From the IMG/VR virus record IMGVR_UViG_3300032006_001707, positions 1 through 27,705 of that record: a DNA stretch of 27,705 bases. One strand, 5' to 3'. The position numbers and the translations under genes were made by a program. Numbering within the stretch: position 1 is the stretch's first letter; every line of letters begins with the position of its first letter. Source of the stretch: a virus. This document shows, piece after piece, positions 23,777-27,403 of this stretch. The notes below the pieces were generated by a model. It was not told where the DNA came from, did not search any database, and worked only from the letters and a program-made list of their open reading frames with translations.

Positions 23777-24157
23777 TTATTTCAGTTCAACAGTTCCACC
23801 AGCTTCAACTAAAGCAGTTTTACACGCTTCAGCTTTATCTTTGTCTACTTCTTCTAGTACAGCTTTTGGTCCTTCTGCACAACCTTCAACAAAGTTTTTG
23901 GCTTCTAATAACCCTAGGTCCATAAACTCTCTGACCTTTTTAAGAACAGCAATTTTCTTATCAGCGGCAAACCCTGTTAACATTACCGTTGCTGTATCTT
24001 TGACTTCTTCGACTGGTGCTTGTACTTGAGCTGGTTGGCTCATTAAAGCATCTAAGTCTAGCCCCCATGCCTTTTCTAACTTCTTAGCTAGTTCGCCAGC
24101 TTCAACAACATTTAAGTTGCCCAACTGTTTTACTAATGTATCTAAATCACTTGACAT
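23777..24157 (-). CDS. rplL: Ribosomal protein bL12 (L7/L12)
   Basis: The 126-residue product is a complete bL12. It has the N-terminal dimerisation/L10-binding helices (TLVKQLGNLNVVEAGELAKKLEKAWG, read in parts, residues 7-32), a Gln/Ala/Pro/Val hinge (about 40-52) and the C-terminal factor-binding domain. The latter has KKIAVLKKVREFMDLGLLEAKNFV (helices alpha4-5) and ends in VEAGGTVELK. Host bL12 forms the ribosomal stalk that recruits EF-Tu, EF-G and IF2. Because the N-terminal domain is intact, the phage copy could replace host L12 on ribosomes. Viral bL12 genes have been reported in marine phages. The SD is AAGGA. It is oriented away from the tmRNA gene. Confidence 0.93.
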   Translation of the reverse strand: MSSDLDTLVKQLGNLNVVEAGELAKKLEKAWGLDLDALMSQPAQVQAPVEEVKDTATVMLTGFAADKKIAVLKKVREFMDLGLLEAKNFVEGCAEGPKAVLEEVDKDKAEACKTALVEAGGTVELK

Positions 24158-24424: not shown

Positions 24425-24455
24425 TTGACCTTTCTATTATATTGTGTTATAAATA
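24425..24455 (+). promoter_or_regulatory. tmRNA promoter (sigma70-like, overlapping a late motif)
   Basis: TTGACC (24425-24430) and TATAAA (24448-24453) are 17 nt apart. The -10 extends to TATAAATA (24448-24455), a perfect match to the T4 late promoter consensus. The tmRNA could therefore be made both by the unmodified host polymerase and by a late-modified one. Confidence 0.7.
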
Positions 24456-24522
24456 CACTTGTTAACGTTGAAGCTACACAAAGCTAAACAAGACGCGGGT
24501 TCAATTCCCGCCACCTCCACCA

Positions 24523-24568
24523 AATTGGAGCATCCGCGGAGTATATATTTTCCGCAAGTATACAGTCC
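24523..24568 (+). other. Excised spacer of the permuted tmRNA
   Basis: These 46 nt lie between the encoded CCA of the acceptor piece and the first G of the coding piece. They contain short complementary segments (TCCGCGGA; GTATA/TATAC), suggesting a folded precursor loop. It is expected to be removed by the tRNA-processing nucleases that make the mature CCA and 5' ends. Confidence 0.75.
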
Positions 24569-24806
24569 GGGGGTGAACTGGGATCGATTGGTAGTGTATA
24601 GTGTACGTGGAGTTGCCCGTAAGACACGACGGCCTCAACCTAGCGGTTGTTGGAATTAGTTCGAACACTATAAATGCTAACTTAAAAGCATCAGGTAATG
24701 TAACCTTTGTTGATTTCAAAGCGAAATTACCGACAAATGAACAGGTGTTTGCCTTAGCGGCATAGCTTGTACGGAGTTTGACCTACTTGGCAACAGGACA
24801 GGTTGG

Positions 24807-24834
24807 GATTGGGCCTTCGGGCCCAATCTTTTTC
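24807..24834 (+). terminator. Rho-independent terminator of the tmRNA
   Basis: GATTGGGCC-TTCG-GGCCCAATC is a perfect 9-bp stem with a UUCG tetraloop (24807-24828), followed by TTTTTCTT. Confidence 0.95.
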
Positions 24835-24863
24835 TTGACATCCTCTAAATTTTATATTATTAT
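24835..24863 (+). promoter_or_regulatory. Possible sigma70-like promoter behind the tmRNA terminator
   Basis: TTGACA (24835-24840), a 17-nt spacer and TATTAT (24858-24863) follow the terminator directly. Its transcript would run antisense through the minus-strand gene 24869-25117 before reaching the HNH gene. Confidence 0.45.
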
Positions 24864-24868
24864 AACAG

Positions 24869-25117
24869 CTACTTTTTTAAATGGTCTTTAGCTATGTCGT
24901 ACCAATACACACCACTATCGCGAAGCAGTTCATTAGCAGTACGTAATTTTTCTAATCGTCTACATAAAACACCAAGTTTATATTCACTTAATGGTTTATC
25001 GTCTTCGCATAATATCGTTAGTCTTTTTAGAACATCATCAATTGCAGGGCAAGTGATGTCAGGAACTTTTGGCGCATTTCTTTTAAGTCTACGCCACTCA
25101 GCGTTAGTAAGGGTCAT
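24869..25117 (-). CDS. Small unknown helical protein
   Basis: The 82-residue product begins MTLTNAEWRRLKRNAPKVPD, is rich in Leu, Arg and Asp, and contains KLRTANELLRDSGVYWYDI near the end. Two Cys lie in the middle. No family was recognised. The start is well supported by a strong AAGGAGGG site 4-5 nt before the ATG on the minus strand. It is opposite to its neighbours and lies between the tmRNA terminator and the HNH gene. A plus-strand promoter-like sequence at 24835 would make antisense RNA to it. Confidence 0.75.
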   Translation of the reverse strand: MTLTNAEWRRLKRNAPKVPDITCPAIDDVLKRLTILCEDDKPLSEYKLGVLCRRLEKLRTANELLRDSGVYWYDIAKDHLKK

Positions 25118-25204
25118 AGCACCCTCCTTTAGGTTTGCATTATTATTTAAAACCAGTTGTAAACAACTTATGTACTCTTATTATTAAATAATTTGGAGAT
25201 TAGA

Positions 25205-25594
25205 ATGATAGATCATAATAATAGAATTTGTATTGAAAAAGGATGTGATAAGTTAGGACAACACATGGGGCTCTATCTAAAAGATGGTACTCCTAGACGT
25301 AGAAACAGATGTGACATACATCATAAGATTAATATTCAATACGGTGCTGGATTATATATGGGCCATCGAAAAACCTACTGTGAAAATAAAGATAAACGGT
25401 TAGGATTTAAATGTACAACTAATGTTATTTGGCAAGGAATGTTAGATGTAGATCATATAGATGGAAACCATAATAATAATCATCCAGATAATTTGCAAAC
25501 ACTTTGCAAATGCTGTCATGCGTATAAAACTATTATAAATGAAGACTGGAAAAAATCGGTTGACAATAACTTCGAAAAGTTATATAATGCTTAA
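25205..25594 (+). CDS. HNH endonuclease
   Basis: The 129-residue product has the HNH core LDVDHIDGNHNNNHPDNLQTLC in two parts, with the catalytic His in DHIDG and Asn/His at NHNNNHPDN. It also has paired cysteine knuckles (CIEKGC, YCENK, LCKCCH) suited to zinc binding. The ATG at 25205 has GGAG 6 nt upstream, so an upstream TTG at 25193 was rejected. Free-standing HNH enzymes in T4-like phages often act as homing endonucleases, and its location between RNA genes fits a mobile insertion. No intron is evident. Its last codons contain the tRNA-Ala promoter. Confidence 0.85.
   Translation: MIDHNNRICIEKGCDKLGQHMGLYLKDGTPRRRNRCDIHHKINIQYGAGLYMGHRKTYCENKDKRLGFKCTTNVIWQGMLDVDHIDGNHNNNHPDNLQTLCKCCHAYKTIINEDWKKSVDNNFEKLYNA
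25560..25588 (+). promoter_or_regulatory. Perfect sigma70 promoter for tRNA-Ala/tRNA-Asp
   Basis: TTGACA (25560-25565), a 17-nt spacer and TATAAT (25583-25588) match both consensus hexamers. It lies inside the 3' end of the HNH gene. Predicted transcription starts about 9 nt before tRNA-Ala. Confidence 0.85.
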
Positions 25595-27091: not shown

Positions 27092-27403
27092 ATGTACAGA
27101 CCATTACCAGACGGATTAACAATAAAAGAGTCCAACGTACAAGGATTAGGATTGTTTGCAACACAAAACTTTGATCCAGATACTGTTCTGGGAATTGTAC
27201 ATATTAATAATAAGAATTTCCCGCATGGTTATATTCGAACAGCTCTTGGAGCCTTTTATAATCATTCGGAAGATCCTAACTGTAAAACATTAAAAGGATT
27301 TTGGCACCAAATACCGGTTGTTTATCTAGTAACTAAAAAGAGCATTAAAAATGGTGATGAACTTACGGCAAAATATACTTTGTACAGCGATTTTGACTAC
27401 TAA
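27092..27403 (+). CDS. Small SET-domain protein (putative protein lysine methyltransferase)
   Basis: The 103-residue product carries the SET hallmarks in order: GLGLFATQNF (18-27), a GAFYNHSEDPNC motif (53-64) matching the N-H-S-x-x-P-N pseudoknot core that binds S-adenosylmethionine, and IKNGDELTAKYTLY (about 85-98), the final catalytic Tyr region. It is near the minimum size for the fold and lacks pre- and post-SET parts. The target is unknown and could be a ribosomal or histone-like protein. Genes are adjacent (1-nt gap to the thermonuclease), with coupling likely since no clear SD lies upstream. Confidence 0.75.
   Translation: MYRPLPDGLTIKESNVQGLGLFATQNFDPDTVLGIVHINNKNFPHGYIRTALGAFYNHSEDPNCKTLKGFWHQIPVVYLVTKKSIKNGDELTAKYTLYSDFDY

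Follow-up and report, generated by a model that had tools for sequence, protein, structure and literature searches.

A complete circularly permuted tmRNA gene with a long, motif-bearing tag in a phage genome fragment

The window analysed here, i.e. the whole linear stretch of 27,705 nucleotides of marine viral DNA, carries genes for NrdA and NrdB, a glutaredoxin-like ORF, tRNAs and what may be a baseplate hub/lysozyme-like protein, a set that fits a T4-like myophage with ties to phages of the cyanophage type. In it lies a circularly permuted tmRNA gene, complete in all its parts, which are given below with the basis for each in parentheses, followed by the neighbouring genes.

24425-24834, + strand: complete circularly permuted tmRNA gene, in the order promoter, acceptor piece, spacer, coding piece, terminator
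24425-24455, + strand: promoter, with TTGACC at 24425-24430, 17 nt, and TATAAATA at 24448-24455 (sequence)
24448-24453, + strand: -10 hexamer TATAAA (sequence)
24460-24522, + strand: acceptor (3') piece, including the 3' strand of P2, the inter-piece helix; 5' end approximate (RF04321 alignment, sequence, duplex test)
24495-24511, + strand: T arm, perfect, within the acceptor piece (RF04321 alignment, sequence)
24512-24518, + strand: acceptor 3' strand CACCTCC (sequence)
24519, + strand: A73 (sequence)
24520-24522, + strand: CCA end of the acceptor piece (sequence)
24523-24568, + strand: intervening segment of 46 nt between CCA and G1, removed in a two-piece tmRNA (position)
24569-24834, + strand: coding (5') piece (RF04321, sequence, pairing)
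24569-24575, + strand: acceptor 5' strand GGGGGTG (sequence)
after the 5' strand, + strand: D-loop-like AUCGA, P2 5' strand, PK1 hairpin CCGU/ACGG, tag and terminal hairpins (RF04321, pairing)
24636-24649, + strand: small hairpin CAACC-UAGC-GGUUG, downstream of PK1 and upstream of the tag (sequence comparison)
24676-24765, + strand: tag frame ANLKASGNVTFVDFKAKLPTNEQVFALAA and stop, 29 aa, with resume codon GCT at 24676-24678 (ARAGORN, purifying selection in relatives)
24703-24717, + strand: codons of T-F-V-D-F, the motif inside the tag, pattern [TS]FV[DN]F (alignment and pattern searches)
24805-24834, + strand: UUCG tetraloop terminator with T-run, the stem-loop at 24805-24830 being followed by T's (terminator scan, compensatory pairs)
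23777-24157, - strand: phage gene for ribosomal protein bL12 (L7/L12), with both of its domains recognised, in divergent orientation to the tmRNA gene
24869-25117, - strand: small helical protein of 82 aa adjoining the tmRNA, with family motifs APKxPDITCPxID and LRxxNxxLR
25193-25594, + strand: HNH endonuclease, following closely on the tmRNA region
27092-27403, + strand: phage SET-domain protein (PF00856, 43 bits)

The 82-aa protein belongs to a family present in 175 viral contigs and is predicted to be all-helical (pLDDT 84.7), with no match in Pfam, PHROG or cultured phages and no convincing fold match in the PDB. A tmRNA is carried by 62 of the 79 records with this 'APKVPDITCP' protein, in 59 cases within 3 kb (median 559 nt). 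Controls weakened the idea of a dedicated tmRNA partner: 32 of 50 records selected by NrdB have a tmRNA, and the protein occurs in only one of these 32 tmRNA regions. As the reverse link fails, we regard the protein as a case of synteny within a subclade and deduce no function from it. A linkage between bL12 and the tmRNA was also rejected, with tmRNA in only 8 of 49 bL12-carrying records. The SET-domain protein adjoins a cytidine/dCMP-type deaminase and an SNase-like nuclease, and in L004, a near relative, a similar HNH gene starts after the tmRNA.

The Rfam model tmRNA_permuted (RF04321), merged from RF01849 (alphaproteobacterial) and RF01850 (betaproteobacterial), matches positions 24470-24765, scoring 78.2 bits where the cut-off is 47, with an E-value for the window of 1.2e-13, a result that answers the covariance-model check proposed in an earlier, sequence-only reading of this DNA. 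ARAGORN likewise calls a permuted tmRNA with a 29-aa tag, at 24429-24856. The gene order is the permuted one, positions 24512-24522 coming before 24569-24575 with the 46-nt spacer between them; the 3' half, the gap and the 5' half were thus all found where that reading had placed them. The two acceptor strands pair over 7 bp including G3·U70 and are accompanied by A73 and CCA, and the tag frame at 24676-24765 runs from an alanine resume codon to a stop with a hydrophobic -AA end (FALAA). With RF01850 alone the score of 55 bits falls short of that model's cut-off (84), so the gene is not assigned to the betaproteobacterial clade; the covariance-model scores leave an alpha- versus betaproteobacterial origin unsettled. 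Chance is excluded by the model score together with the conservation and compensatory changes in relatives. These data support a phage-borne, complete, permuted tmRNA gene in which alanine identity appears to be kept, and two mature RNA pieces, alanine charging and partnership with SmpB are predicted from its anatomy.

Permuted tmRNAs are already known from marine phages, and this gene is of that published kind, which answers the earlier question of whether relatives have been described. Melnitz, a phage of OM43 (Methylophilales), was described in 2022 as carrying one, and in the same work ARAGORN suggested 53 two-piece structures in a phage genome database (PMC9004378); a tmRNA database of 2025 lists 79 phage sequences (PMC11915505). 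We found matches above the RF04321 cut-off in Melnitz (113.4 bits), Pelagibacter phage HTVC008M (90.6 bits) and Caulobacter phage CcrPW. The 32 of 50 NrdB-selected phage records mentioned above also exceed this cut-off with a permuted tmRNA, so such genes are common in this phage clade. At the sensitivity used, cultured phages gave no similar tmRNA or tag, only short T-arm matches.

Melnitz and HTVC008M resemble the window in that they are marine T4-like myophages with the acceptor piece first and a tag ending in ALAA. However, their tags are shorter (14 aa, ANDNYVPVDYALAA, in Melnitz and 10 aa, ANFNEYALAA, in HTVC008M) and both are without the internal motif. The Melnitz gene was reported with a glutamine riboswitch (PMC9004378), whereas an Rfam model search found no riboswitch family in the window. 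Bacterial permuted tmRNAs (RF01849, RF01850) have in common with the window the gene order, G3·U70, the T arm, the PK1 hairpin and a last hairpin with UUGGCAACAG, but the tags sampled from them are mostly of 10-13 aa, as opposed to 29 aa. The AUCGA D-loop is also present in alphaproteobacterial permuted loci. The longer variant AUCGAUU, whose exact pattern had 0 matches in 84,980 genomes, was rejected as a phage-specific feature, since alphaproteobacterial tmRNAs carry AUCGACG.

The four near relatives L004, L050, L008 and L041 retain the gene with scattered changes. The small hairpin at 24636-24649 is shared by the window with L008 and L041 and is absent from L004 and L050. Over about 160 related viral loci, which include related records and are not independent samples, the acceptor stem takes more than 10 different sequences (GGGGGTG/CACCTCC, GGGGATG/CATCTCC, GGGGTGG/CCACTCC, GGGCCTG/CAGGTCC and others), nearly all of them with 7 bp in a screen that required at least 6 of 7 pairs. 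G·U at position 3 was not required in this screen, and G3·U70 and A73 are found in every row but one, a weak second match in CcrPW that looks like a chance hit. Thus the acceptor pairing with G3·U70, earlier described for the window as intact alanine identity, co-varies in sequence and is yet kept in related phages.

Pairing between the two pieces was also assessed in 23 divergent phage lineages, each coding piece being folded with all of their acceptor pieces in turn. The cognate P2 duplexes sum to -394, versus -288 ± 14 for shuffled partners, and none of 20,000 shuffles equalled this value; inter-piece pairing co-varies across the 23 lineages. For the window itself the cognate acceptor ranks sixth of 23 candidate partners, so its own P2 is only moderately supported, and by eye the second part of P2 is weak in L008. 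Two further loci, L020 and L099, have an almost identical tag and 3' end and clearly different tmRNA 5' regions, a pattern that suggests possible recombination within phage tmRNA genes. The HNH endonuclease downstream might mobilise the tmRNA locus.

The promoter and tetraloop terminator that had been proposed to bracket the pieces are both present, as TTGACC/TATAAA at 24425-24453 and the UUCG stem-loop at 24805-24830. The promoter, predicted to be sigma-70-like, has 10 of 12 consensus bases when counted by eye, and it was missing from the scanner's list because its second hexamer is without the final T. It is kept in all four near relatives. Homology of the window to L008 and L041 begins at the -35 element and the sequence further upstream differs, which indicates that the promoter travels with the gene. 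The 46-nt spacer is nearly invariant across the four relatives, and the terminator hairpin shows two compensatory pairs between the window and L004. The -10 region at 24448-24455 (+ strand) is the only copy in the window of TATAAATA, the T4-type late-promoter sequence, versus 5.4 expected in shuffles.

The most distinctive feature of the gene is its long tag with an internal conserved motif, TFVDF, upstream of the ending EQVFALAA. Length alone was rejected as distinctive: most of the bacterial permuted tags sampled have 10-13 aa, but a few alphaproteobacteria, such as L258, reach 20-29 aa. In the NrdB-selected phages short and long tags occur side by side in one clade, the short ones being ANDNYAPEMAMAA, ANENFALAA and similar, and most of the long ones sharing an internal [TS]FV[DN]F and an ending near NEDFALAA. 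Tags of the motif-bearing group have 28-31 aa and keep both the motif and the terminal FALAA. Long tags of other kinds, ANKKALGFADLTVGMSELRLAA and ANAFKPEVTVPVSIFADAELVAA among them, occur in other groups of phages. A search of 2.9 million viral contigs with a pattern of the motif, a fixed gap and an EDF-A-x-AA ending gave 80 places with 25 distinct tags, all 80 with a permuted acceptor structure upstream (again with at least 6 of 7 pairs required). The same tag patterns had no match in 385 alphaproteobacterial genomes. The tag of the window, which ends in EQVFALAA, was reached through its relatives and not through this pattern.

In a codon alignment of 14 tags, all have the same F, V and F in the motif but differ in the codons used for them, D and N interchange within the motif, and the stretch from the motif to the ending varies freely. 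Tag lengths differ by whole codons. Mean pS is 0.52 and mean pN 0.29, with pN below pS in 89 of 91 pairs; the tag frame is open and under purifying selection. The invariance of F-V-F is partly a product of how the sequences were selected, since the 14 tags were collected by the motif itself, of which 9 come from the NrdB-selected set, where tags were read with no motif requirement; the synonymous codon change is unaffected by this. Such synonymous change under F-V-F is most simply read as selection that acts on the peptide and not on the RNA. We infer that the internal [TS]FV[DN]F may serve as a second site of recognition, whether by an adaptor or by a further protease (Lon or FtsH, for example). 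Searches of open-access literature gave no paper on this motif, which is weak evidence of novelty, and the tag variant appears to be undescribed so far.

Transcription, cleavage, alanine charging, SmpB-dependent rescue and tagging are established for tmRNA. We consider it very likely, from the anatomy of the locus, that this gene specifies a functional two-piece phage tmRNA that works with SmpB, AlaRS and processing enzymes of the host and has a FALAA tag with a putative second tag site. It would be transcribed from its own sigma-70-like promoter as far as the terminator, and host tRNA-processing enzymes would excise the 46-nt spacer, with RNase P cutting at G24569 and 3' trimming reaching the CCA at 24522. 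The acceptor stem and P2 would then hold the two pieces together, host AlaRS would charge the molecule via G3·U70, and during infection host SmpB would deliver it to ribosomes that have stalled on broken mRNA. Ribosomes would thereby be recycled and the stalled chain tagged, and the FALAA end, as the usual Clp-type degron, would be acted upon by a host protease. The sequence-only reading had proposed that the virus could run its own ribosome rescue; the complete phage tmRNA agrees with this, but no gene for SmpB, alanyl-tRNA synthetase or the protease was recognised within the window. These proteins and the processing enzymes would have to come from the host, unless the remaining phage genome supplies some of them.

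The role of the tmRNA in infection could also be conceived differently. The authors of the Melnitz study suggested that a phage tmRNA mainly tags and destroys host proteins early in infection, recycling amino acids rather than rescuing ribosomes; their tmRNA follows an early promoter (PMC9004378), and the promoter in the window is sigma-70-like too. Trans-translation, however, acts on stalled ribosomes and not on finished host proteins, and we regard this as an unlikely main function, even though sequence cannot separate its effects from those of rescue. The phage RNA might instead enter host ribosomes or bind SmpB as a decoy, mainly blocking host trans-translation, for which the tag-less tmRNA of phage DS6A, cited in PMC11915505 as inhibiting host tmRNA, is a precedent. 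Since a decoy would need no tag, the intact frame of the window, ending in FALAA and a stop and under purifying selection, makes this very unlikely.

That the gene is a functionless passenger or remnant from a host, left for example when an element that had integrated in ssrA was excised imprecisely, finds some backing in the fact that ssrA is a common integration site with fragments in prophages (PMC9004378) and in the short T-arm matches that are all that cultured phages show. This is hardly probable for a gene that is complete, has its own promoter and terminator, and is frequent in its clade, as seen in the NrdB-selected records. Moreover, compensatory changes and selection on the tag persist inside the phage lineage, and the listed ORFs of the window include none recognised as an integrase.

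For the functional phage tmRNA, a lengthened tag has a parallel in Mesoplasma florum, where a long SsrA tag is read by Lon (PMC9382460), and its altered recognition element is a precedent for a change of protease. The M. florum tag has the ending NYAFA and accompanies a lack of active ClpXP, whereas the window retains FALAA and its extra motif is internal. We tentatively propose, as a possibility rather than an expectation, that a group of marine T4-like phages reprogrammed the tag, so that in infection the selected [TS]FV[DN]F upstream of FALAA directs tagged chains to another adaptor, another protease or another binding partner.

Permuted phage tmRNAs are known, and a phage-specific tag with a second selected signal in it would allow the question of why a phage keeps one to be put to the test. 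Long-tag and short-tag tmRNAs coexist in one phage clade. If the reading of a second selected tag signal is true, some partner is predicted to recognise the motif, and in infected cells the fate of chains tagged by the phage would differ from that of chains with the host's tag.
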